Assembly: GCA_019096065.1 (NCBI GenBank)
Contig: JAGUCH010000008.1
Span: 5,001-69,000 of the forward strand
Reading direction: 5' to 3'
Length of the DNA stretch: 64,000 nucleotides
Source of the DNA: Paracyclopina nana
Taxonomy: Eukaryota > Arthropoda > Copepoda > Cyclopoida > Cyclopettidae
Positions 20,066-64,000 of the stretch are shown in pieces; positions within the stretch are counted from its first letter, which is position 1; each line of letters opens with the position of its first letter. Under the pieces are notes generated by a model that was given only the letters and a program-made list of their open reading frames with translations, was not told the DNA's origin and made no database searches. The position numbers were made by a program, and so were the translations under genes.

Positions 20066-23000
20066 TCAAATCATTTCATCGGGGCCTTGGAATTCAGCCA
20101 GGGCTTTCATCGGATTGGCAGGTTTGCGTTGAGATCCACGCCTTACTTTGGCCTTGACTTCATCCGGAGAATCCCTGCGTACCAAAGGCTTCTTTTCGGG
20201 TGCCCTCATCTTCCAGACGACTGGTGGCTTCTTGCCCCGCTTGCCCTCATTGGCTGCCAGGGTTGGGTATTTGGTGCTGGCCACATACGAAGACTTCACT
20301 GTGGAGACAACGGCATTCATCAGATTTTTCGCAGTCTGGATCAAGCTTGTCGCTGAATCCAGGCCAGAGACAACCAGTTCCCCGGTCACGTTTTGCTGCA
20401 CATCAGCTTTGACCTGCAAGCAAAAACAGAATTAAATCATCCACATACGTAAACCTTGTACTGATTGAATTGTTACAGAATGATATCATCCATATATGTA
20501 AACCTTATACTGATCGAAGCCAAAAAAAGAATTAAATGATCGACATATGTAAGCCTTGTACTGATTGAATCCTTACAGAATTAAATCATCCACATACATA
20601 AATCTTGTATTAATTGAAGCCTTACCCTGGATGTGATATTGAGTTGGTGGCAAAGCGTGTCAATCTTCTCGAGGTAGCCCAACAAGTCCTTTTTGGTCTC
20701 CGATTCCGGACACATGTCAGCAATGGTTCGGGCAAAGGTGTCCAGTTTCTTGCCAGCCTCAGAGATCTTCTTCGCTGCCTCGATGACTGCCATGGTGGTT
20801 TGTAATGGTCCCTTTCCCCTCGTGAAGTCGGTCATCTCCATCATAATCATGCACATGTGTTTGGCCAAGACGATGATGTCGTTGCCATTGTCATCCCATT
20901 TCGATACCTCAATGTCAAACTTCCTCTTCTCCACTCGGAAGACTTCAACTTGTTCGGCAATTTTAGCCCGGTCCTGCTCAGGGAGTTTCTTCATCGCTTC
21001 CCTCGCTGTGGTGACCCCAGCGATTTCCGGATACTCGTCCACAACGGTTGGAAGTGGCAGAGTGGAGTCTGGCCTCGAACCAATCGTTGAGGCCATCTCG
21101 GTTTCCATTTCAGCCTCGTCCGAATCGAATTGAGGGGCTCGGTTCATTTGCACCGTTCTCCTAAGCTCACAAACCGCCTCATAGACAAAACCAGCCATGC
21201 CAAGGAAGTCTTCTTCTCTTATTGGGACATTGTTCATTATCGCTTCAATCTAAGCAAAAAGAGAACAGTTTAAAACATTGCTAGGTTATTGTTAGTAAGT
21301 AATGTTACCTTTTCAGCAAGATTAGGCACTGCTTGTGACCGCAGCAGGTTGACAGTGTCCATGACTCGTTCGGTGTAGTAACCGGGCTCATAGTTGTCCA
21401 TTTCTGCCATGACAACCGCACAGATGCGAGCAGATCGTCCACGTATGGCACCGAAGGCCCGGTCCACATTGTCAAAGTCTCCGTGGTGGAAGGCTGCCAC
21501 GCAGGCATTGACATCCTCCAGGATGTGGTTTTCGGAGACGGCCAAAAAGTCATCAATAGTGGTGATATCATCAACAGCATCGGTCAGAATTCGCACCTGG
21601 TTGATCCAGGCATCCGCAAAGACCTCCATGTTCTCCTGAGCTGCCCGAGAGGTATGATGGGAGGCCAAGATTTGGGCAGCGTACACAACCTATGTTATAA
21701 AGACATTGGAATAGGCAACCACAATCCGGAATGAATAGTTAGTGTTACCTGAGGACACAAGTTTTCGATTTGAGAGGCTGCATAGCGAACCATTTTCACC
21801 CCATCCTCATTGTTCGACATTGAGCATGCCAAATTGGCCACTTCAACCAACTTGTGGGCATGCTCGGTGAACATGAGCGCAAACTCTCCAACCTCCTTTG
21901 CATGCCCTTGTCTGGCTGCCTCGAAAAGGAGGAGCAGGGGATTGTCAGCCTCGAGAAAGGAGTCAGACACATGATCCACCACCGCTTTCCTTAGCTGCTT
22001 CCTCAAGATTCTTGTCTTCGAAAGCATTCGGTCAATGGCATCATTCAAATGTTCTGACTTGGATTTGCCAACATTGTCCATGTACTCACCGAGCAAATCT
22101 TGCAAGGCTTGTCGCACAGAGTTACCCGCAGCCACAATTCTCTCTTTCCTATCATCTCTAGTGCAGCTGGAACACAAGAAAAGGTTGAAATCAGGTCCAG
22201 ATGACTCAGAATGGATTGTGAACTAGCAAATTATAATTAGCTTAGTGTTGAAAATCAGTACCTGGAGTCAGCGAGGATTGCAGCTCCAGAAATGATGGTT
22301 TCAAGGCTCTCCTCGAGGGATTTCCTATGAGCAGCTTCATTATAATGCAAAGGATTAATGATGATGGAAGCATCAAAGTCATCGAGGGCAGCTGCCAACT
22401 CTCCGGGTCCTTCGAATGAAACCTGACCTCCAGCGGGGTAATTCCCATTCGCTACCTCAGACATGGTTCTCACCGCTTCACACATCTGTAAGGAGAAATA
22501 TGAGATCATCCATGTAAATCATCTAAATTCAATAGGCTTACTTGTCGCATGACAAAGTCTCTGTTGGCTTTCGCAGCTGCCAACTCCGGATGCTGGACAT
22601 GAGCTTTGGAGGCTGTCATCAGCATGGTTGAATGCTTCTTTAGGACTGCCCTAGCAGCTGCCAAATCATCCCTTAAGGCAGGATCACGAAGCTCATGCTG
22701 CCTCTTTGCAGCTTGAGCCATCAAGTCTTGAGCGCTCAAGTTGAAGGCATTCATGGAGTTCAGCAACTCAGCCTCAGAGTTGACATTCTTGAGGTTGTTC
22801 AAGTCTTCCTCAACCTGCTTCAACTTCTTCAGCAATAAGTTGACATCGATGATGTCTGCCAGAATAAGTAGCCTGGTGACAGCAGATAGCAAATTTCGAG
22901 CAGCCTTCACCTGGAAATACAAAGGAAAAAAAATTAGAAGATTATGTTTAATTTCAGACTTATGCACTGAAAGCAAAAAGGGAATATTTCTACCAAGTCT

Positions 23001-26000: not shown

Positions 26001-29000
26001 TCAGCTTGGGAAACTGACAACAAATTAGGAAGTTGATGATTGAGTCCCATTGTTTTGATATTTGATTTGAAAACATAGACAGCTGTGTCATAACATAGAC
26101 ATGCCATCTACCGACAATTTTGAAGAAACACTTGGGAGTTGAGCTCAAAATCTAGTTTAATTTTGATGAGTTCAGTAACTTTTTTTAATGCGACAAATTA
26201 TTATAAATGGTTACGTTTAATTTGTTTTAACAGACTGATTTTTCATCGCGGGGCTTCGTTTGATACATCGATTCGGGTTTGATTTTTCAATTTTGGGCCC
26301 AAACCCCTTGTCACCATGTGGTTTGATGGGGTTTCAAGTTTGGCGGCCCCCAGGATGCTCTAAGGGGGTCAAATGGGGCCTGGTCTTATCAGCTGATTGA
26401 AACAAGGCAAATCTTTGCGGGGGCGTGGCTGGAGGAGTGGAGGGCAGCCAAAATCAACTATGCCCCAATTCTTGAGGCCCCTGGGGGGTGTCCAGATGTC
26501 AGGGGAAAAAAGTTGGAAAAAGTCCTCGGCAAGGCCAAAAAAAGCCAAAATTTGCATTTTCGGACCCAACTTTGAGGCCGATTATCTCCAAAGGCTACGG
26601 ATGGATTTTGGATTTTTTTGCTCCAAATGGCAGATAAAGATCCAAATTAGTACCAAGAAAAAATTTGGGATGGTGTTATTCCTCGTTTGTCTGCTACGAG
26701 CTCTCAAAGTTGGACAAAATTCACTTTTTCACAGTAGTAACAAAATGGCTACTTTTCTTCTGTCAAAAATTCTCGATTGGTCACAGTGGCCAAGTTGATG
26801 GCTGGAGTGTGGGCCATTTGGTCTGGAGGACACCTCTAGGGTCTCAGTGGTTGGTATCAGGTCCAACTTCCTTGGTAGGGCTAGGCCAGGCCCAGCCAGG
26901 AGCCTTGGAGCCGAGCCATCGCGACGGCCATTTCGATTCAGTGGCAATTCCAAGGGCCTTGCTGCCAATTCTGGGGACAGATTGTTGACCATTTGGCCTT
27001 GATCACTCCTTTAGGGTCCCAACAGATGATTTCAAGGCTAACAGTCAAGGTACAGCAAGGTCAGCTTGATCCAGGGGGCTCGGAGTTCACTTGTGGCATT
27101 GGTGATTTGGCTACAGAAAGTCTTCGAGGGCCTCGATGGCCAAGTTCTCTGATCAGGTGAGGATTTTTTGAGCTGTATCACTCCTTTGGCATCCCATGAG
27201 ATGATTTCAAGTTCAACTTTGATGGTGATCATCAGCTGACTGCTTCCAGGGCTACCAGAGCTTATTTGCCAACTCAGCTGCCAATGGTTCAATGAAAGGC
27301 AGCATGGATCACAGCCAAGACCAAGGTTGGAAAGTGGATTTTTTAGGCTGAATCAACTCAAATGGATGCAAGGAGATGAAAGAAAGTCTATTTTTCATGG
27401 TGTTATGCTCCCTTCTTCAACCAGGAGTGCCAAAGTTTCGTATGAACAAAAATTGAAAATAAATTCAATAAAGAGCTCTTTTGATTGCAGCCAAGATGAG
27501 CAATGGCAAGTCACTTTTTTGCTCCAGCTCAGCTCAGGGGGTGCCAAAGAGAATTTAGAAGGTGTAAACTTTCAGGTGTTGTGCACCTTTCATGGTTCTG
27601 GATGCGCAAAACTTTCATGTGATAGCCAGAGCTCAAATAATAACAACTGCTACTCACGGATGAAAAAGGCTCGCGCTCGACAAATCGCGGATTGAACTTG
27701 ACTTTTTTGGTCCAGCTCAACTCCATTGGTGCCAAAGAGGCTGTGGAATGTGAAAAATTTCGGGTGTTCTCCATTTTTCATGATTCTGGACTGGGCAAAG
27801 TTTTATGGAGTGATGGCCACTATTATACTATATGCTGCTACTCGCGGATGAAAATGGGCTCGCGCTCGACAAATCGCGGATTGAACTTGACTTTTTTGGT
27901 CCAGCTCAACTCCATTGGTGCCAAAGAGGCTGTGGATTGTGAAAAATTTCGGGTGTTCTCCATTTTTCATAACACCTGAAATTTTACACCTTCTAAATTC
28001 TCTTTGGCACCCACTGAGGTGATCCAGGCGAGTTCCATCCGTGAATTTTTGAGCGCGAAGCGTTTTCCGTTTGCGAGTAGCAGTTGTTATGGGTCCTACT
28101 AAAAGGCACACAATGCCCACAATTGGCACACAATGCCCACAATACCCACAAGGCACACAACCGGCACACAATTACTAAAAGACACACATCGAGTTAAACA
28201 ATAAAAATTTTATGAATTCTAAAAGAAAGTTTTTAGCTTAGAAATGTGCCAAATATAAAAGTACCTTTTTAAAAATACAATGAATCACAATTTAGCTAAT
28301 ATTATTAAGCATAAGATAATTTGATGCAGCTTCCAAAATGTAAAAAAAAATTTCTGACTTTCCTTTGCACACAATGATGGCACACATTGGCGCACAATGG
28401 CACACAAAATTAACAACCCAGGCACATGATCCAATTAGTTTGCTTTTTTACTCCATGTGTGCCTTTTAGTAATTGTGTGCCATCATGGCACACAATGGCA
28501 CACAATGGCACACAATGGTACACAATGGCACACAAAGGCACACAAAGGCACACAAAGGCACACAAAGGCACACAATGGCACACAATGGCACACAATGGCC
28601 CACAATGGCCCACAATGGCTCACAGTTGCACATAATGGCACACAATGATGGCACACAATGGTACACAATGGCCCACAATGGCGCACAATGATGGTACACA
28701 ATGGACGGTTGAAACGGCAGCCTTTTTACAACACACGACATAAGGCTTGCTGCAAATCAAAGTCAGAAAATTATTGCATTTACATTTTCTGGCATTGCTT
28801 TGCTGAGATAATGCCAAAATTCCGGCAATTACAGCTAAATCAATTGTTTCAATTGTTGTTAACAACAAAAGCACATATTGGCACACAATGATGGCACACA
28901 TCGGCACACAATGGCACATAATGGCACACAATGGCACACAACGGCACACAATGATGGAAAACTAATAGCACACTTTTGTTTTTAGCTTAGCTGTGTGCCA

Positions 29001-32000: not shown

Positions 32001-34357
32001 AACAATTGAAACAATTGATCTAGCTGTAATTGCTGAAATTTTGGTATTATCTCAGCAAGGCAATGTCAGTAAATTAAATAGCTCAAATTAAGTTTTGTTA
32101 AATAAAATAAGCAAAATTGTAATTCCTTATATTTTTAAAAAAGTACTTTTATATTTGGCACACATCTAAGCTAAAAACATGCAACCACTTTCCAGCTTAC
32201 TTTTATGAATCAATTATTTTTTTTCTAATTTTGATGTTTGCCTTTTAGTAATTGTGTGCCGGTTGTGTGCCTTGTGGGTGGTGTGGGCATTGTGTGCCAA
32301 TTGTGGGCATTGTGTGCCTTTTAGTAGGAGCGGTTGTTATTATAAGAGCTCTGGCTGTCACAGTAAAGTTTTTCATATCCAGATTCATGAAAGGTGCACA
32401 ACACCTGAATGTTTACACCTTCCACAGCCTCCTTGGCACCAACTGAGCTGAGCTGGAGCAAAAAAGTGACTTGCCATCGCTCGTCTTGGCTGCAATCAAA
32501 GGAGCTCTTTATTGAAGCCATTTTCGACTTTTGTTCCCATGAAGCTTTGGCACTCCTGGTTGAAGAAAGGAGCATAACACCATGAAAAATAGACTTTCTT
32601 TCATCTCCTTGCATCCATTTGAGTTGATTCAGCCTAAAAAATCCACTTTCCAACCTTGGTCTTGGCTGTGATCCATGCTGCCTTTCATTGAACCATTGGC
32701 AGCTGAGTTGGCAAATAAGCTCTGGTAGCCCTGGAAGCAGTCAGCTGATGATCACCATCAAAGTTGAACTTGAAATCATCTCATGGGATGCCAAAGGAGT
32801 GATACAGCTCAAAAAATCCTCACCTGATCAGAGAACTTGGCCATCGAGGCCCTCGAAGACTTTCTGTAGCCAAATCACCAATGCCACAAGTGAACTCCGA
32901 GCCCCCTGGATCAAGCTGACCTTGCTGTACCTTGACTGTTAGCCTTGAAATCATCTGTTGGGACCCTAAAGGAGTGATCAAGGCCAAATGGTCAACAATC
33001 TGTCCCCAGAATTGGCAGCAAGGCCCTTGGAATTGCCACTGAATCGAAATGGCCGTCGCGATGGCTCGGCTCCAAGGCTCCTGGCTGGGCCTGGCCTAGC
33101 CCTACCAAGGAAGTTGGACCTGATACCAACCACTGAGACCCTAGAGGTGTCCTCCAGACCAAATGGCCCACACTCCAGCCATCAACTTGGCCACTGTGAC
33201 CAATCGAGAATTTTTGACAGAAGAAAAGTAGCCATTTTGTTACTACTGTGAAAAAGTGAATTTTGTCCAACTTTGAGAGCTCGTAGCGGACAAACGAGGA
33301 ATAACACCATCCCAAATTTTTTCTTGGTACTAATTTGGATCTTTATCTGCCATTTGGAGCAAAAAAATCCAAAATCCATCCGTAGCCTTTGGAGATAATC
33401 GGCCTCAAAGTTGGGTCCGAAAATGCAAATTTTGGCTTTTTTTGGCCTTGCCGAGGACTTTTTCCAACTTTTTTCCCCTGACATCTGGACACCCCCCAGG
33501 GGCCTCAAGAATTGGGGCATAGTTGATTTTGGCTGCCCTCCACTCCTCCAGCCACGCCCCCGCAAAGATTTGCCTTGTTTCAATCAGCTGATAAGACCAG
33601 GCCCCATTTGACCCCCTTAGAGCATCCTGGGGGCCGCCAAACTTGAAACCCCATCAAACCACATGGTGACAAGGGGTTTGGGCCCAAAATTGAAAAATCA
33701 AACCCGAATCGATGTATCAAACGAAGCCCCGCGATGAAAAATCAGTCTGTTAAGGCTTAGCGTCATGACTCTAACAGCGTAATTTTAACTATCAAATAGT
33801 TATTATTGATTTAAAGCCACTTTATGTTTGAGTCGTGAATTGTCTGGAAAGCTTAATGACGTTAATTTGCTCGGATCTTTAATTCAAACTATTGCTGGAA
33901 TTGCAAAAACGCTGCAACTCAGTTTTTTTCTTAAGCAGCATCAGCCGAATGTCCCAGCTGTTGCCCTAAAAGGCCGCTAGGATCGCTCTGCAACATTGTT
34001 GTTGTTTTGACACAAATGTGAATTGTTTCACCAACAAATTAAGCAACAAAACATAAAGTCTCGCTATAATTCTAAAACTGCCCAATCCTAAGTACTCATT
34101 TGTTATTTATTTAAAAAAAGTAAACATTGAAACAACATTTTTAAAATAATTTCAAATAGATGAACTGTGCATGTTTTTGAGATTCCTTGAAATCTGATAC
34201 AATGGAATTTTCAAAGGCTGAGTCATTAAAGTTACCTGAATGACTAAAGGCTCCAAGGTCTGTTCCACACTTTTAGTGCGAATTTCCAATTTGTTGAGGT
34301 CCCAATTGAGCATGTTATGGGCTTGATTGTAGGCCAGTGAATTCTCCATTTTGACTG
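20066..34357 (-). CDS. alpha-Cat: Alpha-catenin
   Basis: Complete coding sequence of 911 codons. Exons: 34357-34236 (ATG at 34349; LEIRTKSVEQTLEPLVIQ), 25809-25552, 22910-22542, 22485-22262, 22166-21749, 21689-21309, 21249-20626 and 20413-20066. All junctions have GT-AG and continuous phase. Similarity to animal alpha-catenins runs end to end: LLSAVTRLLILAD, SCTRDDRKERIV, LRKAVVDHVSDSFLE, EVANLACSMSNNE, WDDNGNDIIVLAKHMCMIMM, MTDFTRGKGPL, LVVSGLDSATSLIQTAKNLM, WKMRAPEKKPLVRR. Order is the N-terminal beta-catenin-binding/dimerisation domain, the M region and the C-terminal F-actin-binding domain. The protein links cadherin-beta-catenin complexes to actin at adherens junctions. A non-coding first exon is likely: a donor (CAAG/GTAAGC) at 35255 pairs with the acceptor at 34358. 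The 8.4-kb intron 25810-34235 holds a large mobile element. Confidence 0.97.
22945..23575. repeat. Three diverged copies of a ~140-bp unit in alpha-catenin intron
   Basis: Units beginning TTTCAG..TTATGCACTGAAAGC start near 22952, 23167 and 23426. Each includes an AAGTCTCA word, a TTTGATTTTACCAAG-like segment, an ATAATGGCTT segment and GCGATAAAACTT. Spacing is irregular (215 and 259). Confidence 0.75.
23600..25028. other. Intronic sequence with two tRNA-like remnants
   Basis: Near 24317-24392: a D-arm-like TAGCTCAATGGTT; a perfect 5-bp anticodon stem (TTGGA/TCCAA) around the loop ATGCCAA (GCC anticodon position); a B-box-like GAGGTTCAAATC; and a T run. The acceptor stem does not pair. A second TCTGAGGTTCAAATCC lies near 24219-24234. 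These look like tRNA-derived SINE debris. The rest of the interval is unremarkable. Confidence 0.35.
25029..25551. repeat. Diverged direct duplication upstream of alpha-catenin exon donor
   Basis: 25029-25190 and 25390-25551 align (GGATTGTTGAG.GGTG/GATG, ATATGCCCTTAA, ACCAATCAT, GTGAATCTAGGCCA, CCTTAATGC.CTG). The offset is about 360 bases. The second copy runs directly into the exon-intron junction at 25551/25552, while the first stops matching just before it. Confidence 0.7.
26102..26175. repeat. Inverted partner of the 17752-17824 dispersed repeat
   Basis: Reads TGCCATCTACCGACA, AACACTTGGGAGTT and CAAAATCTAGTTT, the complement of the copy at 17752-17824. It lies about 55 bases outside the large inverted-repeat element. 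Confidence 0.75.
26231..28185. repeat. Left terminal inverted repeat
   Basis: Pairs with 32240-33749. The left arm is about 450 bases longer, mainly because a unit of about 190 bp (TTGGTCCAGCTCAACTCCATT, GGTGCCAAAGAGGCTGTGGA, a TTTTCATGATTCTGG-like part, CTCGCGGATGAAAA) is present about three times at 27490-27975. The right arm has it once. Confidence 0.85.
28100..31620. repeat. GGCACACAAT minisatellite blocks, orientation flips within the element
   Basis: Blocks of 10-bp GGCACACAAT/GGCACACAAA/GGCCCACAAT units occur on the plus strand at about 28380-28960, 29235-29420, 29570-29670 and 30830-31030. The complement TTGTGTGCCA runs at about 31195-31345 and 31497-31605. The orientation switch falls near 31030-31190, which is the axis of the foldback. 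A run of CACTTTTGTGAC units (29445-29545) is a separate 12-bp repeat. Confidence 0.9.
29690..30790. repeat. Tandem ~185-bp units inside the element
   Basis: The word GTGTGCTTGTTGTG (with variants) recurs at about 29883, 30067, 30252, 30437 and 30623, spacing about 185. Each unit also has CATGAAAGTTGCTTTTAAAAAT, GATAATTTGATGCAG and GCTGAGATAATGCCAAAATT. Related units occur in reverse orientation at about 31040-32160, in keeping with the foldback. Confidence 0.9.
32240..33749. repeat. Right terminal inverted repeat
   Basis: Reverse complement of the left arm. The inner border holds GTGTGCCTTTTAGTAGGAGC, matching GGTCCTACTAAAAGGCACAC near 28091 on the left. Apart from the missing internal duplications, differences between the arms are very few in the outer 1 kb, so insertion or arm conversion is recent. 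Confidence 0.85.
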
Positions 34358-53019: not shown

Positions 53020-54130
53020 GTTTTTGCCCTAATTTTCCAGGATCGGTTGACGAAACTTGTTAATTTCACCTTATATCTCATGAATTCACCCAAAAAGTGC
53101 TGATAACCGCCTGAATAACCCATGAATTGCGCTAAGTTGTGAAATCTGGTAACGCTGTAACAGCTTGTGGAACTCGGAATTGCTTTTTAGTTAGAGTATT
53201 GCCCTAATTTTTCAGGATCGGTTTTTTACCCTTTTTATTGATTTCTACCCAAAAGTGGCAAGAAAACGCCAAAATGAGTATAATTTTTACTAATTAACTT
53301 CAAATCCGGAAACGCTTTAGCTTAGTATGTTGCCCTAATCATTCATGATCGGTTCATACAACTGGATCTTATTTTAAATTGTTAATCACTCACTTTCTCT
53401 AATTTCTAGCCAAAAGCAGGTAGAAAACGCCAAATATAGCCTTTATTTGCGCCCAAAGTGTAAATCCAGCAACGCTGTTGCAAATTTGAATTTTTTGGCA
53501 AAACAAAAAAATTTTCATTTCTTTTTTTGAAGGGAGAAAAGATGGCCGAGGACATTGGCAAATTGGTGCCAAATTTGCCAAATCAGCTTAGGATTTTGCC
53601 CTAATTTTTCAGGATCAGTTCTTCCAACTGGATCAGCTGTTAATGAATCCTTACTCCCTCTATTTTCTAATTTCAACCTAAAAGTGGCAAGAAAACGCCA
53701 AAATGAGCTTGATTTTTGCAAATAAACTTCAAATCCGGAAACGCTTTAGCTCAGGATTTTGCCCCTATTTTTCAGGATCGGTTCTTCCAACTGGATCAGC
53801 TGTTGATTAATCGTCATTCCCTCTTTTTATTGATTTCAACCCAAAAGTGGCAAGAAAACGCCAAAATGAGCTTGATTTTTACAAATTAACTTCAAATCCG
53901 GAAACGCTTTAGCTTAGTATGTTGCCCTAATCATTCATGATCGGTTCATACAACTGGATCTTATTTTAAATTGTTAATCACTCACTTTCTCTAATTTCAA
54001 GCCAAAAGCAGGTAGAAAACGCCAAATATAGCCATTATTTGCGCCCAAAGTGTAAATCCAGACACGCTGTTGCAAATTTGAATTTTTTTCAGAAAATTCA
54101 AAACAAAGACAATTTTGATTTTTTTTTTCT
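53020..54130. repeat. Tandem ~165-bp / 600-bp repeats upstream of TUT1
   Basis: The word GCCCTAATTTTTCAGGATCGGTT (with variants) recurs near 53027, 53201, 53330, 53598, 53760 and 53923, with AAAAGTGGCAAGAAAACGCCAAA in each unit. A larger 600-bp period is superposed: 53330-53590 and 53930-54190 match closely and include the start codon region of the downstream gene. Confidence 0.9.
53542..53590 (+). pseudogene. Copy of the TUT1 start exon, exactly 600 bp upstream
   Basis: GGGAGAAAAGATGGCCGAGG at 53533 matches GGGAGAAAAGATGGCGGAGG at 54133. It codes MAEDIGKLVPNLP against MAEDIGKLSPNLP, then leaves the gene sequence and hits a stop after a few more codons. The preceding acceptor-like T run with AAG/TAG is duplicated too. 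Confidence 0.9.
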
Positions 54131-54141
54131 AGGGAGAAAAG

Positions 54142-57100
54142 ATGGCGGAGGACATTGGCAAATTGTCGCCAAATTTGCCCATTTTTTGCGACTCTTGCCA
54201 AGTGGATTTGGCCACAGTTGAATTGGCGGAAATTCACATCAAGGGCAAAAAACACAACGGTCGATTTTGGAAGATTCCGCGGAAAAATCCCGCGGTTTTT
54301 CTGCCCGACTGCAAATCCTTCGGAACCGCGGACATTTTGACGCATTTCGCCAAATTCGGAGTGATTCGCGACATTCGCGGATTCAAGGCGAAAAAATTGG
54401 CAAATGAGAAAACAGAAGAATTTATCCGGATGAGGATAGAATTTGACGATCCGTAATTCTTTTAATTCTATTTTTTAATAGATTAATTTGAAAAAGGTCC
54501 TAACCCAAATTCTTTACAACACCCGAGAAATTTTCATTTTCTGAAATCTTATGCTCTTAGGGTTCATTTGGTAGTGATTTAAAAATCCTGGCCTATGGCT
54601 TCCCGTAACTTGAAACTTTCAAAAACGTCTAGCACCTACAGCTTGTAATTTTTTGAGATTATTCATAGCAATGACCCCCTCTGAATAAAGAAGATGCAAC
54701 TTTTTTCATTTCATAAGCAAGTCTGTAAAATGCACTCAAATTGAGATATTTGCTGCCAAACTTATTATGCATAATTGGACGTGATCGACTTTGAGCATAT
54801 CATTATCTCCATTTCTGTTCATCCTAGCGATTTTACTATGAAGCAACTTTAGTTTTATTTTTGAATTTTAGTGGGGGTCATTGAAGCTGACTATCCCCAA
54901 AAAATGAGCCGTTTCTGCGCAGAACGTTTATAATTTTTTTTTTTTTTTGGAAGTGATAGGCCAGGATTTTTATTTAATCACCAAATGAACTCTTAGGACA
55001 TAAGCTTTCCAGAAAATACACAATTCTTGGGTGTTGTAAGCAGTTTGGTTTGGGTCCTTTGTCAAGTCAATGTGAGCGGAGCAAGTCGCTCGACGGAGGC
55101 GGATGTTGAATGAAGAGTTATTAGAACAATGACTATAATTTTTTTCCCGCCAAATTCCACTTAATTTTTTTATGGGTGAAAAAAGAAATGATTCAAGGGT
55201 GATTTACTGCTAAAATCAACAGCTGTTTTTGCTACAGATTTTTCAAATATTTGAAAATCTCAGCTAATTTTGAGCAGTTTTACATGATGTAACTTTATTT
55301 TATTGTGAGAATATTTCACAATATCATTTTAGTTTATCATTTGTCCCCAAAAAATTTATAGCAAAATGCAGATTATTTTTGCCGAATTCTGCTCAAATTA
55401 TCCGATTTTTTCAAATATTTGAAAATATCAGCTGATTATGAGCAGTTTTACATGATTTAACTTTATTTTTTGTGAGCATAATTCAAAATATCAATTTAGT
55501 TTACCATTTTCACCCAAAAAATTGAGATGTAGATTATTTTTGCTTTTGATAATTCTGCTCCAATTATCCGAGGCGAAAAAGCTCCGCTTCCCGCCTTTGG
55601 ACGCCCAATTTGATTTTCATCCATTTTCAAGGCAAATTGTGGACAAGATTTTGAAGATGCGACATTTGATCAAAAATAGAAGCATTCGGGTTGCAAGAAG
55701 CATTGAAAAGGCGCCAAGTTGCACTTTTTTGACGGAAACCGAAATTGGCCAAATTGTGCAGAAAATCAGCCATGATCAAGTCAAAGCGGAGCTGAAAGGG
55801 ATTGAAGATCCGGAAGAGCAAATGGAAGCTCTAATGAAATTGCTCGAGTTGAAAGCCAACGACATTGAACAACGCACAACAATTGCCAATCACATCCAAG
55901 TAAATTAAAATTATCAACTTTTATTGGTACGGGACGAGCCAACAATTTTGGGGCTTGAGCGCATTCAAGCTTTTGTGAAATTGAAAATGGCTTTAATGAG
56001 ACATTAATTTTGGTTTTCGGGCTTTTTTGAGCAAAACTAGTTTTCTTTGAGGCCGAAAAACGTTTTTTTCAAAATCTGAATGCATTAGATTGTCAATCAA
56101 GGCCAAGTAAACCAAAAATATTGACTTTTATTGGTATGGGACGAGCCAACAATTTTGGGGCTTGAGCGCATTCAAGCTTTTGTGAAATGGAAAATGGATT
56201 TTATGAGACATGAATTTTGGTTTTCGGGCTTTTTTGAGCATTACTAGTTTTCTTTCAAGCCGAAAAAGATGGTTTTTCAAAAATAGATTGCCAATAACAT
56301 CCAAGTAAATTAAAATTATCGACTTTAATTGGTACGGGACGAGCCAACAATTTTGGGACTTGAGCGCATTCAAGCCTTTGTGAAATTGAAAATGGCTTTT
56401 ATTAGACATTAATTTTGGTTTTCGGGCTTTTTTGAGCAAAACTAGTTTTCTTTCAAGCCGATATAGTTGGTTTATCAAAAATTGATTGCCAATCACATGC
56501 TAGTAAATTAAAATTATCAACTTTTATTGGTACGGGACGAGCCAACAATTTTGGGGCTTGAGGGCATTCAAGCTTTTGTGAAATTGAAAATGGCTTTAAT
56601 GAGACATTAATTTTGGTTTTCGGGCTTTTTTGAACAAAACTAGTTTTCTTTCAAACCGAAAAAGATGGTTTTTCAAAAATTGATTGCCAATAACATCCAA
56701 GTAAATTAAAATTATCAACTTTTATTGGTACGGGACGAGCCAACAATTTTGGGGCTTGAACGCATTCAAGCCTTTGTGAAATTGAAAATGGCTTTTATTA
56801 GATATTAATTTTGTATTTTGGGCTTTTTTGAACAAAACTAGTTTTCTTTCAAACCGAAAAAGATGGTTTTTCAAAAATTGATTGCCAATAACATCCAAGT
56901 AAATTAAAATTATCGACTTTAATTGGTACGGGACGAGCCAACAATTTTGGGGCTTGAGCTCATTCAAGCCTTTGTGAAATTGAAAATGGCTTTTATTAGA
57001 TATTAATTTTGTATTTTGGGCTTTTTTGAACAAAACTAGTTTTCTTTCAAACCGAAAAAGATGGTTTTTCAAAAATTGATTGCCAATAACATCCAAGTAA

Positions 57101-60100
57101 ATTAAAATTATCGACTTTAATTGGTACGGGACGAGCCAACAATTTTGGGGCTTGAGCGCATTCAAGCCTTTGTGAAATTGAAAATGGCTTTTATTAGATA
57201 TTAATTTTGTATTTTGGGCTTTTTTGAACAAAACTAGTTTTCTTTCAAACCGAAAAAGATGGTTTTTCAAAAATTGATTGCCAATAACATCCAAGTAAAT
57301 TAAAATTATCGACTTTAATTGGTACGGGACGAGCCAACAATTTTGGGACTTGAGCGCATTCAAGCCTTTGTGAAATTGAAAATGGCTTTTATTAGACATT
57401 AATTTTGGTTTTCGGGCTTTTTTGAGCAAAACTAGTTTTCTTTCAAGCCGATATAGTTGGTTTATCAAAAATAGATTGCCAATCACATGCTAGTAAATTA
57501 AAATTATCAACTTTTATTGGTACGGGACGAGCCAACAATTTTGGGGCTTGAGGGCATTCAAGCTTTTGTGAAATTGAAAATGGCTTTAATGAGACATTAA
57601 TTTTGGTTATTGGGCTTTTTTGAGCAAAACTAGTTTTCTTTGAGGCCGAAAAACGTTTTTTTCAAAATCTGAATGCATTAGATTGTCAATCAAGGACAAG
57701 AAAACTAAAAATATTGACTTTTATTGGTATGGGACGAGCCAACAATTTTGGGGCTTGAGCGCATTCAAGCTTTTGTGAAATTGAAAATGGCTTTTATTAG
57801 ACATTAATTTTGGTTTTCGGGCTTTTTTGAGCAAAACTAGTTTTCTTTCAAGCCGATATAGTTGGTTTATCAAAAATTGATTGCCAATAACATCCAAGTA
57901 AATTAAAATTATCGACTTTTATTGGTACGGGACGAGCCAACAATTTTGGGGCTTGAGCGCATTCAAGCCTTTGTGAAATTGAAAATGGCTTTTATTAGAT
58001 ATTAATTTTGTATTTTGGGCTTTTTTGAACAAAACTAGTTTTCTTTCAAACCGAAAAAGATGGTTTTTCAAAAATTGATTGCCAATAACATCCAAGTAAA
58101 TTAAAATTATCGACTTTAATTGGTACGGGACGAGCCAACAATTTTGGGACTTGAGCGCATTCAAGCCTTTGTGAAATTGAAAATGGCTTTTATTAGACAT
58201 TAATTTTGGTTTTCGGGCTTTTTTGAGCAAAACTAGTTTTCTTTCAAGCCGATATAGTTGGTTTATCAAAAATAGATTGCCAATCACATGCTAGTAAATT
58301 AAAATTATCAACTTTTATTGGTACGGGACGAGCCAACAATTTTGGGGCTTGAGGGCATTCAAGCTTTTGTGAAATTGAAAATGACTTTTATGAGACATTA
58401 ATTTTGGTTTTTGGGCTTTTTTGAGCAAAACTAGTTTTCTTTCAAGCCGAAATAGTTGGGTTTTTTTAATGAAAGCATTAGATTGCAAATCAAGTGCAAG
58501 AAAACAAAAATTAACATTTGCCTTTCTAATTTGTATTTTTTCCCTTTGCAGAGAACTGTGAGTGATGTTTTTCCCAATTGTGTGGTGTACCTTTTTGGAT
58601 CAACTGTTAATGGACTCGGATTTGTGGGATGCGATATTGATGCCTACCTAGATTTAGGTCTGTTTTTGAGCAAAAACATATATTATGTTAAGATTAGTTT
58701 ATTGTTCAAAAGAAACATTCATCAACTAGTGCTGTCATCATTGAATATGAGTAGACAATAACTTTTATAGAAATAATTTAATCAGCAAAGATAATTTTAA
58801 ATATTATAACTCAAGTGGAAAAAATGAGAAATATGCTACTAAAATAATTGCCTCAAATATATTTTTTATTTGTATAAAATACCAATGCATTAAAACAATT
58901 TTCATCTTTTGCAATCAATATCATATAACATTCTTTGTCCTCAAAATTAAGTTTGCTGAAAAAGTAAATAATTTTTGAACATCATATCAAAAAGCATTAC
59001 TAATTTTAATATTAATGTAGCATTCTTATTGTTTATAAAAAATTGTTTAATTCTGCTATTGTATACTTTAGTTTTATACTAAACATTCTTTTTCGTGTTT
59101 ATTTCATTAAAAATTCAAAGTATACCTCATTAACTTAATGGAATATATTTATTTTCATTTTTACAGGCACTGAAAAAAATGCCGGTGGGGAAATGCGCAG
59201 CGTGGCGCGCGAAGCCATGCAGAGTCGCGCCCGCGCAATCGCGAGCAAATTGAAGGAATCCCGACTGAACGGAATCATCGCGAATGTTCAGGGCATTTAC
59301 CAAGCTCGCGTGCCCATCGTCAAATTTGTCCACATCAAGAGCGGCCTCAGCTGCGACCTCAGCCTCAAAAACAAAATGGCCGTCCTCAACACGGAATTCA
59401 TCCGTTTGTGCATCGAGGCTGATGCTCGTGTGCGAACTTTGATGGTCACCATTCGGTACTGGGCCTCAAAATTGGGCATTTCCGGCGGCGGCAAAGGCAG
59501 CAGAAGCCTCAAAATCACCAACTACGCCTTGACCCTCCTCGTCATTTTCTACCTCCAGGTGATTTACTTTACTCAATAAAAAAATATTCAGTGCTGCTTT
59601 GGGCCGGGTTAGTAAAGTTGCTCAGTGGCTATTGTAAATCAGCTGAGGCCATGAAATGAGACACACTATTTCCTGCCACCAGGTGGTTTACTTTATGTAA
59701 AAAATGTTCAGTGCTGCTTTTGATCAAGCTCGTAAAGTTCCTCAGTGGCTGTTGTAGATCAGCTGAGACCATGAAATGAGACACATTGTATCATTTTCTG
59801 CCACCAGGTGGTTTACTTTATGTAAAAATATATTCAGTGCTGCTTTTGATCAAGCTCGTAAAGTTCCTCAGTGGCTATTTGAAATCAGCTAAAATGCGGC
59901 ACATTATGTCATTTTCTACCACCAGGTGATTTACTTTAAGTAAAAAATACTCAGTTCAGTTCCTCAATGACTTTTCCTATTTGAAATCAGCTGAAATGAG
60001 GCACATTATGTCATTTCTTGTAATATTCTGCCTCCTGGTGATTTTCTTTATGCAAAAATAATCAGTTCTGCTACCGTAGGTCAGTCTCATAAAGCTCCAG

Positions 60101-62965
60101 GTTTTTCTAACTACTTAATAACTGACGCCTTAATATCACACATTATTTTCTACCACCAGGTGATTTACTTTATGTAGTATTCTCTGCACATTCCTGCTCT
60201 CTGACACTCTAACCGAAACCTTAAAATGGCAAATTATGCAATCTCTTAATTGGTTAAACTAAGCCTTAATTAAAATTCATGAATTGATGCTTCCCATCAT
60301 TTTCTACCACCAGGTGATTTCCATTATGTGAAAAAAACAGCTTAAGCACTGAGGGTTTTCCTACTTTGAAACAAGTTCAAAATTACGCTTAGTTGGAATG
60401 TTTGATAGGTCCGCCGAGTGTTGTTTTTCTTGGCCGAGCGGAGCGAGTGCCATAATTCACAATTAGGCTCAATTCATGATAAACAGTGATGTAAAATGCA
60501 ATTGTTTACACTTTTCTTCCCGCATAAACAAAGGTTGAGGGCATTTTGCCAAGTGCCATGACTTTGCAAGGATTGGCCAAGGTTGGGGACAAGTGCATCA
60601 TTGATGGTTGGCAGTGCGGATTTTGCACGGATTTGTCGCTTTGGCCGCTTCAGCCAAAGCCCAAATGTGGCATGGATCTTTTGCGAGGATTCTTTGCTTT
60701 TTATGGCGAGAAATTCAACTATGGCACTCACGTGGTCTCACCTTTTGCTGGCATTCCAGTGGAGAAATCCAAATTTGTCAAGAAAGTGGAGCACGATGAA
60801 GAAAGCTACATGAAAACTTACTGGGAAAACGTTTTACTGAGTAGCACTGGTGCAGAAAAAAGCCAAGATGAGCAACTACTTCATGTTGAAGCATCTCTCT
60901 GTGTTCAGGTAAAATGAAAGCCCTCGGTTGGTAAAGTGATTTTCATGCAGTTGTTTTGTTTTACAACTTAAGACGAGGTTGATTTGTATGCTTTTTTTAT
61001 GGTTTCTGACTCTTTGTTGTGTTCCTTGGGGGTTGTAAAGTTACTTTATGCACCTGACCAGAAGCCATGTAACGCTTGTAAATATATATTTAACATTTGT
61101 AAAGTAATGCACTCCTAGTGACGCTATGTACTTTTTTGAGGCATGATACTTTTTACTTTATTCTTAAAGCAAGGAGTTATTTCACATACATTTGATTGTT
61201 TGAGGTACATAAAGTAACTTTACAGTCCCTTCCATAAACCAAGCAGCCCTTGGAAACACATATTTTGTTTAGAAAACATTAGTGTCTTTGTTGACAAAAC
61301 AAGTTTGCAAATAATCACAGAGTAGCAGTTGAGGTACGTAAAGTTACTTTACATACTTTTGATGCCGTAATGATTGTAAAGGAGCCAAATGTTCATAGAA
61401 GAAAGCTTAGCGCCGTGTTTCTTTATTAGGGTTTTCTGCACTTTCCACTCCTCCCTCGGCTCTTTTACGTCCCCGCTTTACAGCCCCTTTAAAATTGGAG
61501 AAAATTAATATTTGTTTTTCTTTACAGGACCCCTTTGAGCTGAATTTGTGCGTGACTAAGGGCTACTTACCTCAAGCCTTGGCCAAGTGGAAGCAAAGCT
61601 GTGATCAAACGGCCAAACTACTCAGCCGGGAAAAAGACTTTACAAGTCTACTCGACATTTTTGAGCTCGACTCATCTCAGTCTCTCAAGGGAAGCAAATT
61701 GCTGACAAAGAAGAAGAAAGCTGCAGCCATCAATCCAAACGAATCAAATGTCTGCTTTGAAGTGCCATTTCATGGCCAAACTGAGGACAAAGAGGCCTTT
61801 ATGGCCAGAGTCAAGTCGATCCTGCATCAAATCGCCAAGGTGACAATCTCTATTATCCCTTGCTTTATATCCTTCCTTTACAGTACCTCTTGAAAAAAAC
61901 TGCAGTTGAATTCTAAAGAGCTTTCTGTTCATCTTGTTGCCTTGTAAAGAAATATTTCTCAAGTTATGTAACATTCATGTGTTATGTCAGCAATTGAATA
62001 TTTGCTCTGTAAACTATTTTTGATGAAGGTAAATAATTTTACAGGACTCGCCAAAGAACATTCCAGTAAAGATGCAAAGCTTGCACCATCGAGTCTGCAG
62101 GTTTACATACCTGAAATAACTAAAACATTATTCGGGAAACTATTTTACCCCAGGAAAAATCACTTTACAAGACTCAATAATTGGTAGCTATTTCAGTGCA
62201 GTCTTGAACTTCAAGACTTGCAAAGTTGCTTTACTTTACAGTTAATTTGCATCCCTGTGTAGACACAACAGTCGCCTTTCACACCAGGGAAAATCACTTT
62301 ACAGCAGTGATTTACTAGCTGTTTCAGTGCAGTCTCAAACACTTCAAGTCTTGCAAAGTTGCTTTACTTTACAGTTAATTTACATGCCTGCGTAGACACA
62401 ACAGTCGCCTTTCACACCAGGGAAAATCACTTTACAGCAGTGTTGATATCTATTTCAGTGCATTTTCAAGATGCAGACCGTGCCAGTGTCCAGCATGGCA
62501 GACAATGACAAGTGTCCTCACCATGAAGTGGGCAAGGAAGACCCTCAAGCAAAGCTTTTGGCAGGGCTAAAGGCTGAGCCTCAAAAAGAAGGGCAATGGG
62601 CCACTCTTTGCTGCTCTGTGATTTACCATGCTTTCCACTCCAAGTCAAAAAGGGAAGCTGTGAGAAAGGAGCTGAATTTGGGCCCTCAGATCTCAGTTGA
62701 GAGTGAAAGTGCCATCTTTGAGCACATTTTCACTCAGCAATATGGTGGCCTCAAGGCTGAGACAAATTTGGCTGGTTTACTGCAGCCTGACTGTGTATTT
62801 GACATGAGCACACATTGGTCCACTGTGGACAATGAGGTGTGTGTACACTTGAGCCTCTCGAGGTCAAGGAAGAAAGCTTGGAAAGGCATTTTCACCTACC
62901 TAAGAGATTACATTCCAGCCATTCTTGACAGTGAACTACGCCTATTGGGAAAGAATGTTCACTAG
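54142..62965 (+). CDS. TUT1: TUT1-like terminal uridylyltransferase (U6 TUTase/Star-PAP family)
   Basis: About 790 residues. Exons: 54142-54452, about 55533-55899, 58552-58657, 59167-59558, 60534-60908, 61528-61839, possibly 62045-62065, and about 62471-62965. Order of parts: a matrin/U1-type C2H2 finger (FCDSCQVDL...EIHIKGKKHNG); an RRM (AVFLPDCKSFGTADILTHF); the nucleotidyltransferase core LFGSTVNGLGFVGCDIDAYL, with the G-S and D-x-D metal ligands; the third Asp in SGLSCDLSLKNKMAVLN; ITNYALTLLVIFYLQ; the PAP-associated/nucleotide-recognition part (IDGWQCGFCTDL, then DPFELNLCV); and a C-terminal domain ending ELRLLGKNVH, as in TUT1. Family members add uridines to U6 snRNA in the nucleus. Start of exon 2 and exon 7 are uncertain; the other junctions keep phase. 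Most introns carry tandem arrays containing exon edges. Confidence 0.93.
55251..55560. repeat. Duplicated acceptor region of TUT1 exon 2
   Basis: 55251-55395 and 55432-55566 align at an offset of about 181 (GAGCAGTTTTACATGAT; ATATCA.TTTAGTTTA; CAGATTATTTTTGC / TAGATTATTTTTGC; AATTCTGCTC.AATTATCCGA). The second copy contains the 5' part of exon 2; the first is an upstream look-alike with its own CAG. Confidence 0.8.
55880..58460. repeat. 13 copies of a ~198-bp unit in TUT1 intron 2
   Basis: GGTACGGGACGAGCCAACAA (or GGTATGGG...) recurs at 55926, 56133, 56331, 56530, 56728, 56925, 57123, 57321, 57520, 57726, 57925, 58123 and 58321; spacing is 197-199 except two of 206-207. Each unit begins with ATTGCCAAT(C/A)ACATCCAAGTAAATT or a variant, i.e. 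the last ~15 bases of exon 2 plus its GTAAAT donor. Higher-order identity (56335-56490, 57325-57480 and 58127-58282) shows block copying. Confidence 0.97.
59540..60330. repeat. Donor-containing ~120-bp units in TUT1 intron 4
   Basis: After the true junction (TTTTCTACCTCCAG/GTGATTTACTTTA at 59558), the intron repeats CTGCCACCAGGTGGTTTACTTTATG or CTACCACCAGGTGATTTAC near 59683, 59797, 59912, 60029 (mutated), 60148 and 60300, each followed by AAAAAT.TTCAGTGCTGCTTT. Every unit thus carries a copy of the exon end and 5' splice site. Confidence 0.93.
62150..62470. repeat. 133-bp units before the last TUT1 exon
   Basis: AAAATCACTTTACA recurs at 62157, 62290 and 62423 (spacing 133). Units contain TTTCAGTGCAGTCT..AACTTCAAG, and the final one runs TTTCAGTGCATTTTCAAG straight into the last exon. 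Acceptor-like TTTACAG and TTTCAG sites are thereby multiplied upstream of the real one. Confidence 0.88.
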
Positions 62966-63830
62966 GTGCTTTACTTTATAATGTTTGTGACTCGTGGAGC
63001 TGCTCATTTTGGGAGAGAATGTGCTCTATATTACATAACTGACTGTTTGAAATACAATTAAAAAAGGAAAGAATGCTCACCAGGTGCTTTACTTTATTGA
63101 TTAACTGACCAAATGAACTACTCATAAAGTAAAAGAATGGTCCCTGGGTGCTTTTCTTTATTACATTTCTGACTCATTGAAATACTAATAAGAGTAAAGA
63201 ATGTTCACTAGGTGCTTTACTTTATCGATCAACTGACCAAATGAACTACTCATAAAGTAAAGAATGGTCCCTGGGTGCTTTTCTTTATTACACTTCTGAC
63301 TCATTTAAATACTAATACTAATAAGAGCAAAGAATGTTCACTAAGTGTTTTACATAACCGATTCACTGACCAATTGAACTACTCATAAAGTAAAGAATGG
63401 TCCCTGGGTGCTTTTCTTTACTACACTTCTGACTCATTGAAATACTAATACTAATAAGAGTAAAGAATGTTCACTAGTGCTTTTCTTTATTACATTTCTG
63501 ACTCATTGAAATACTAATACCAATAAGAGTAAAGAACATTCACTAGGTGCTTTACTTTATCAATTAACTGACCAAATGAACTACTCATAAAGTAAAAAAT
63601 GGTCCCTGGGTGCTTTTCTCTATTACATTTCTGACTCATTAAAATGCTAATAAGAGTAAAGAATGTTCACTAGGTGCTTTACTTTATAGATTAACTGACC
63701 AATTGAACTGCTCATAAAGGGAAAGCATATTCATTAGGTGCTTTTCTTTATTGCATAACTGAGTTATTGAAATGCAGTTAAAAGGAAATAATGTTCACTA
63801 GGTGATTTTCTTTATTACATATCTGACTAG
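62945..63830. repeat. Tandem repeat seeded at the TUT1 stop codon
   Basis: The coding end GGAAAGAATGTTCACTAGGT continues GCTTTACTTTAT. Downstream, AAAGAATGTTCACTAGGTGC plus TTTACTTTAT (and the relative AAAGAATGGTCCCTGGGTGC) recur about a dozen times, with TGACTCATTGAAATACTAAT and ACTGACCAAATGAACTACTC in alternate half-units; the composite period is about 135 bases. Confidence 0.92.
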
Positions 63831-64000
63831 CATTACACCGTCTACAAATAAATAATGATAATAATATAGCTGAATGTATATTAATATTAACAATGATGGT
63901 ATCACTTGGTTCGTCTAAACATGGGGAACAACACTGATGGCTCTAAACGCTTTAAATAGTGTAGGAATTTATGAAAGTCAGCTTTGACTGCACGCAACTG
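63831..64000. other. Window end, nothing recognised
   Basis: AT-rich; AATAAA at about 63846 could serve as polyadenylation signal for TUT1 if the preceding array is its 3' UTR. Confidence 0.35.

Follow-up and report, generated by a model that had tools for sequence, protein, structure and literature searches.

Tandem arrays across exon edges of a TUT1-like gene near a chromosome end of the copepod Paracyclopina nana: a mirage-like structure

Introduction

Why should tandem repeats run across the edges of exons, copying splice sites several times over within a single gene? The question is raised by a 64,000-nt stretch of Paracyclopina nana DNA (GenBank assembly GCA_019096065.1, contig JAGUCH010000008.1; C8:5001-69000 of the 92-Mb assembly), hereafter the window, in which exons at 54142-62965 (+) encode an enzyme of the TUT1/STPAP type. 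A first-pass annotation had described arrays at most exon boundaries of this gene and had proposed a recurrent process that starts tandem duplication at exon-intron junctions. The arrays are directly observed; "most" was an overstatement, as 3 of the 12 splice edges, together with the start and stop ends of the gene, are copied in tandem. We consider it probable, at roughly 0.76, that the TUT1 arrays are minisatellite-like tandem duplications that happen to include exon edges, resembling the mirages of lancelets and lying in a subtelomeric region.

Results

The TUT1-like gene and its setting

The window opens with 3.8 kb of AACCT repeats as detected by Tandem Repeats Finder (TRF), which we take to be the arthropod-type telomere repeat, and the TUT1-like gene lies 50-59 kb away from them. 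The encoded protein combines a nucleotidyltransferase palm with a PAP-associated domain (Pfam: MTPAP-like palm PF22600, 1.1e-31; PAP-associated PF03828, 2.4e-9), and its best match among solved structures is TUT1/STPAP (PDB 5wu2, 2.9e-38), in an alignment that crosses the exon 2/3 junction; both domains and the best match are those of TUT1/STPAP. Eight TUT1 homologues were aligned at 23-33% identity, and the top named database matches were from decapod crustaceans, followed by fish and a wasp. The C terminus reads LLGKNVH-stop, compared with LLGKIE in a fish homologue. Zinc-finger-like and RRM-like segments were recognized by eye in exon 1, and neither was called by Pfam.

By hand count, one reading frame runs through all seven exons across six introns, apart from the start of exon 2, for which there are two candidates. 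An ab initio exon finder, self-trained on this genome and unproven, matched most edges of the model; it disagreed on where exon 2 starts, on either end of exon 5 and on where the last exon stops. A 56-nt mini-exon at 62045-62100 was dropped because, by our own frame count, exon 6 and the last exon would no longer be in frame with each other if it were included. The exons, with the evidence for each in terms of open reading frame (ORF), prediction and homology, are as follows.

54142..54452 (+), exon 1: ATG at 54142; ORF frame, exon prediction and homologue alignment
55533..55899 (+), exon 2: start at 55533 or 55573, donor at 55900; start at 55632 according to the exon finder
58552..58657 (+), exon 3: ORF frame and exon prediction
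59167..59558 (+), exon 4: ends LLVIFYLQ, conserved in TUT1; homologue alignments and exon prediction
60534..60908 (+), exon 5: frame and homologue alignment; 60571-60830 according to the exon finder
61528..61839 (+), exon 6: contains DPFEL; frame, homologue alignment and exon prediction
62459..62965 (+), last exon: ends LLGKNVH-stop; frame and homologue alignment; end at 62930 according to the exon finder

Array units contain exon edges and their splice sites

Arrays were identified by TRF, by self-BLAST and by edge-by-edge lists of ungapped copies matching at least 62% of 40 bases. The first-pass annotation had suggested comparing the locus with itself, and self-BLAST confirmed the arrays. 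The periods given by TRF were 198, 120, 133 and 64/133 bp.

53231..54179 (+): 5' duplication; TRF, self-BLAST and copy list
55239..55571 (+): two copies of a ~168-bp unit adjoining or crossing the exon 2 acceptor; self-BLAST
55882..58516 (+): 13 x 198-bp array filling intron 2; TRF, self-BLAST and copy list
59542..60338 (+): array of ~120-bp units with seven edge copies, including the authentic exon 4 donor; TRF and self-BLAST
62143..62469 (+): last intron, 3' end; 133-bp array with three acceptor copies, including the authentic one; TRF and self-BLAST
62948..63828 (+): 64/133-bp array starting with the last five codons and the stop and extending through the 3' flank

All 12 listed self-matches of the first intron 2 unit begin at 55882, which is 18 nt inside exon 2, and include the donor (ATTGCCAATCACATCCAA|GTAAATT). 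Thirteen further copies of this edge follow at steps of ~198 bp; GT is present in 11 of the 13, and 7 of the 13 score at or above the authentic level with a matrix learned from this genome. The exon 4 array begins 15-18 nt inside the exon, with one weak match 30 nt inside, and supplies six further donor copies, all with GT and three with the full donor score. At the other side of an intron, the 133-bp array takes in ~11 nt of the last exon and places two further copies of TTTCAG|TGCA upstream of the authentic acceptor. These were located by the string TTTCAGTGCA, so that AG is present in 2/2 by construction; pairwise alignment puts both copies in register, and the ungapped listing recovered one of the two.

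Both ends of the gene are copied as well. At the start, 53231-53579 repeats 53823-54179 at 92% identity, with a 163-bp sub-array inside, and the copy includes the ATG and ~38 coding nt. At the stop end there are 12 further copies, 6 of which retain TAG. Thus, the copies that the first-pass annotation had listed at the start exon, the donors of exons 2 and 4, the last acceptor and the stop codon were all recovered. Its copy of the exon 2 acceptor is ambiguous. The ~168-bp repeat is present and ends at 55571 by self-BLAST. If the acceptor is the AG at 55571-55572, which has the top matrix score among four candidates and is out of frame with exon 1 by hand count, the copy ends one base short of it; if it is the AG at 55531-55532, which is in frame and scores poorly, the copy contains it. 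The exon finder chose neither AG, placing the start of exon 2 at 55632. Several strings like CCCTAATTTTTCAG|GATCGG, resembling 3' splice sites by eye, were also seen in the upstream repeats at 53022-53960.

The edge copies are not chance matches: the best match to the edge 40-mers elsewhere in the window (48 kb) was 23-24/40, and every listed copy reaches at least 25/40. Homologues align across the protein encoded at the exon 2 and exon 4 edges, which identifies the exon as source and gives copying a direction from exon to array.

Arrays carrying splice signals invite comparison with the Rogers model, in which an exonic AG/GT proto-splice site is duplicated in tandem and an intron results. Such gain of introns through tandem genomic duplication is reported from Drosophila (PMC2891723) and potato (PMC4974935), with seven novel Drosophila introns credited to this route in the former. 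Duplication that includes splice signals is common to both cases, and the exon 4 donor and its copies read AG|GT. However, the model requires the exon end to be repeated at the 3' end of the intron, and in introns 2 and 4, the two that were checked, the last edge copy is separated from exon 3 by ~52 nt and from exon 5 by >200 nt, respectively; no resemblance to the exon ends is apparent on the acceptor sides. The exon 2 donor reads CAA|GT rather than AG|GT, and the TUT1 gene bears no sign that duplication created its introns. We therefore regard this origin as highly improbable.

Units turn over in blocks and are private to the locus

The 13 units of intron 2 sort into variant types that diverge by up to 15%. 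Non-adjacent units (u0/u8 and u7/u11) are 98-100% identical, and neighbours are 86-99% identical, some of them at only 86-88%; this block-wise pattern, observed directly, is what one would expect of block duplication or unequal exchange. The near-identity of some units might suggest an assembly artefact, the arrays having been judged from a single assembly. The divergence of up to 15%, the several variant types and the occurrence of arrays with different periods at several sites argue otherwise, and we find this explanation scarcely credible.

When the 5' unit, the exon 2 region and 59530-63840 were used in a genome search that skips very common words and scores best candidates only, each matched only the TUT1 locus. 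A dispersed repeat, transposon or introner family was rejected, since no unit matched other loci in that search, in agreement with the earlier statement that this is not one repeat family inserted many times.

Retention of the copied sites for function, as decoy donors or as a shared splicing or 3'-end signal, would be consistent with the GT kept in 11/13 and 6/6 donor copies and with the copies that match the authentic donor score (7/13 and 3/6). It would also be consistent with the restriction of a 15-mer to this gene, five in each of two arrays, as described below. However, in intron 2, to which the test was confined, the exon-derived 18 nt had a between-unit conservation of 0.858 compared with 0.920 for the rest of the unit, ranking sixth lowest of 32 windows; the eight donor bases that follow were at 0.926. 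The intron 2 copies, with their exon-derived part slightly less conserved, thus do not look selected, and we judge retention for function very unlikely.

On the minus strand, antisense ORFs of 123-255 aa extend across the intron 2 array (56128-58290) because the period of 198 equals 3 x 66. At least one of them was long enough to enter the self-training of the exon finder, and the exons predicted inside this array are therefore false.

Two arrays share a gene-private motif

Although each unit had been described as different in sequence and length, and most of each unit is, CAC[CT]AGGTGNTTTACTTTA is common to the arrays at the exon 4 donor and at the stop end, where it spans the edge in matching register. 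All 10 genomic occurrences of the 15-mer AGGTGNTTTACTTTA lie in the TUT1 gene, five in either array; two were counted for the reversed control. The score of this pair was reached in 7 of 20,000 shuffles, and as the pair was the best between arrays of 110 comparisons, the corrected value is ~0.04, so that the genome count carries more weight. The motif may reflect transfer from edge to edge, a signal that both arrays have in common or a single local origin. That an exon-edge-linked copying process acts in this genome and can transfer edge sequence between boundaries within a gene seems to us quite improbable.

Other short motifs were less confined. Taken as a whole, TTTACTTTA is dense in the TUT1 gene: counted on both strands, there are 17 occurrences within 10.9 kb, and 202 kb of other loci contain 3. 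For TGCTTTACTTTA there were 35 genome matches against 19 for the reversed control, and 7 of the 35 lie in the TUT1 gene. A genome-wide palindromic element, TAAAGTNACTTTA, was rejected, with 40 sites against 56 for the reversed control and no overall enrichment. Three palindromes of the TAAAGTNACTTTA type are found in TUT1 intron 5 (61035-61350), and clusters of them also occur at G000:C5:300117-589059.

Exon edges are not preferred in the loci sampled

If splicing- or R-loop-linked breaks or re-replication started tandem copies at exon-intron junctions, preferentially at donors, repeats should favour exon edges beyond this gene. The edge test covered exons scoring at least 15 with the exon finder (193 exons, 351 edges), and an edge was counted as crossed when a direct repeat at most 1.5 kb apart covered at least 8 nt on both sides of it; the 24 edges labelled TUT1 include false exons inside the intron 2 array. 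In a random sample of 18 x 10 kb, 0 of 269 predicted edges were crossed by a nearby direct repeat. Repeat coverage in this sample was 5/269 at the edge, 11/257 at +100 and 14/253 at +200, climbing gradually from exon to intron without a peak at the edge. A repeat boundary lay within 3 nt at 2/269 edges, where ~0.6 would be expected by our own estimate from the 25/269 edges that have a repeat within 300 nt.

In the rest of the window plus the adjoining 6 kb (locus L033), 2 of 58 edges were crossed. Seven further loci gave 2 of 52, both belonging to one doubtful predicted exon, with a repeat within 300 nt at 16/52; L033 is included in both the 58 and the 52. Among the seven, L033 and L036 lie on the same chromosome end, and L034, L035, L037, L038 and L039 lie on C3, C4, C9, C5 and C7, respectively, 50-58 kb from contig starts that may not be telomeres. 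At L039, four edges had repeats within 300 nt, and none was abutted or crossed. A predicted start codon at L037 is crossed inside a simple repeat and was left uncounted because it is not a splice edge. With 0/269, 2/58 and 2/52 edges crossed elsewhere, TUT1 is a local exception, and the recurrent junction-starting process of the first-pass annotation is not supported by this comparison.

Several observations do favour junction-linked duplication: the three splice edges and both gene ends in TUT1, the 15-18 nt of exon taken in at each of the two TUT1 donors, and, as detailed below, an alpha-catenin array abutting its donor and repeats at or near predicted donors in loci L020 and L017. Set against them are the uncrossed random sample, the few boundaries close to edges, the smooth rise of coverage into introns and the four untouched edges of L039; moreover, no splice junction is involved at the start or the stop end. 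On balance we regard this mechanism as unlikely.

The region itself is rich in repeats. Tandem repeats with a period of at least 10 cover 40.8% of 52.8-64 kb, 18.0% of 4-52.8 kb and 4.5% of the 180-kb random sample. Under random placement, the probability that all three arrays cross an edge was 0.019, 0.054, 0.143 and 0.329 for exon overlaps of 20, 30, 50 and 100 nt; the last intron was taken as 62101-62458, and the whole last intron (61840-62458) would lower these values. As introns 2 and 4 and the last intron's end are almost entirely array, edge crossing is not very surprising.

Neighbouring genes and other loci

The seven junctions of the neighbouring alpha-catenin gene had been reported to lack a clear exon-edge copy. 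This holds in that zero exon bases are copied by the array below, which nevertheless starts exactly at a donor.

20414..20625 (-): alpha-catenin intron with 4 x 49-bp units, starting exactly at the donor GTAAGG; TRF

The intron is almost all array, and GT is present in two of the three further units (GTAAGG and GTAACA). Among the 120 matches listed for alpha-catenin, the best named one is from Tigriopus californicus at 67% identity, with others at up to 75%. A convergent gene, GALNT-like by eye, lies at L033:150-610 (C8:69150-69610). It ends ATCGAGTGAATCC, in the first unit of an array of ~11-bp units that faces the TUT1 3' array, either with the stop GAG TGA or at a donor, GA|GTGAAT, as called by the exon finder. 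This chromosome end may thus hold further structures of this kind.

In locus L020 (6200-6500), within a gene that is glycogen-phosphorylase-like by eye, a ~107-nt direct repeat ends 3 nt from a predicted donor; its copies are 150 bp apart and 82% identical. At L017, a 75% repeat ~1 kb apart starts at a predicted donor. The L017 array at 699-1884, which starts CCCAG|GTTGAG, was left uncounted because an exon end there could not be demonstrated. Within the window, 26327-27352 and 32628-33653 form a long inverted pair with near-identical translations, flanking a ATGGCACACA minisatellite block.

Discussion

The first-pass annotation knew of no described system of this kind. One has been published in lancelets. 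Mirages are tandem duplications across intron/exon boundaries with units of 10-160 bp, often containing AG/GT; splicing is apparently undisturbed, length is unstable and the mechanism is unclear (PMC3087553). The amphioxus examples are Adh3, the globins BflGb6 and BflGb9, TnC and PGBD5 (PMC3087553, PMC3902484). The PGBD5 repeats coincide with or overlap splice sites, the first abutting one (PMC3902484), and for the globins and Adh3 the published data suggest normal splicing.

The TUT1 arrays share with mirages the involvement of both 5' and 3' boundaries, units that differ from one another (between genes in amphioxus) and AG/GT in many units (PMC3087553, PMC3902484). Units span the exon-intron boundary at 3/12 TUT1 splice edges, contain GT in 11/13 and 6/6 copies and AG in 2/2 by construction, and are specific to their boundary in sequence and length, apart from the 15-mer common to two arrays. 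They differ in belonging to an arthropod, in affecting several boundaries of one gene together with its start and stop ends, in lying near a chromosome end and in having a gene-private motif in two arrays. Outside cephalochordates, no boundary-spanning minisatellite stood out among the matches listed in the literature searched, which leaves subscription papers mostly uncovered. The structure is thus mirage-like, rare and already described in lancelets, and is found here in an arthropod.

Ordinary intronic and subtelomeric minisatellites resemble the TUT1 arrays in unit length, divergence, block-wise turnover and location at chromosome ends. TUT1 units differ from them in entering coding exons by 11-18 nt or more, repeating splice sites, start and stop.

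Our favoured reading, minisatellite-like duplication that happens to include exon edges, would begin in a tandem-repeat-rich stretch near a chromosome end. There, slippage or repair may have duplicated sequence locally, one breakpoint of the initial copies falling just within an exon, a few bases from its edge. The units would then have been expanded and reshuffled by unequal exchange or block duplication until the introns were nearly full. The outermost authentic donor or acceptor would still be usable and the copies would be removed with the intron; we infer that the pre-mRNA is tolerated for this reason, and splicing would be normal.

In its favour are the edge copies with their start positions, the alignment of the exon 2 and exon 4 ends with homologues, the units matching only this locus, the local repeat density, the block-wise identities in intron 2, the donor-abutting array of alpha-catenin in the same window and the likeness to published mirages. 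Several findings weigh against this reading. The three crossed TUT1 splice edges compared with 0/269 constitute a local excess (Fisher 7.7e-5, calculated with 3/13 edges, the final count being 3/12, and for a gene chosen after the fact). The exon portions are short and alike (18, 15-18, ~11 and at least 18 nt), which is unexpected for free breakpoints; selection against long exon copies could explain this. The shared AGGTGNTTTACTTTA is unaccounted for. Finally, four loci near contig starts have direct-repeat coverages of 5.1, 40.6, 8.3 and 30.1%, and two other such loci had 4 and 0 self-matches; with repeat density this uneven, location at a chromosome end has by itself no predictive power for arrays.

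The TUT1 arrays alone do not establish a new mutational process. They do provide a clear arthropod case, with several boundaries in one gene, which indicates that the structure arises outside lancelets too, and a compact locus in which to ask how the splicing machinery ignores many equally strong donor copies and how introns lengthen.
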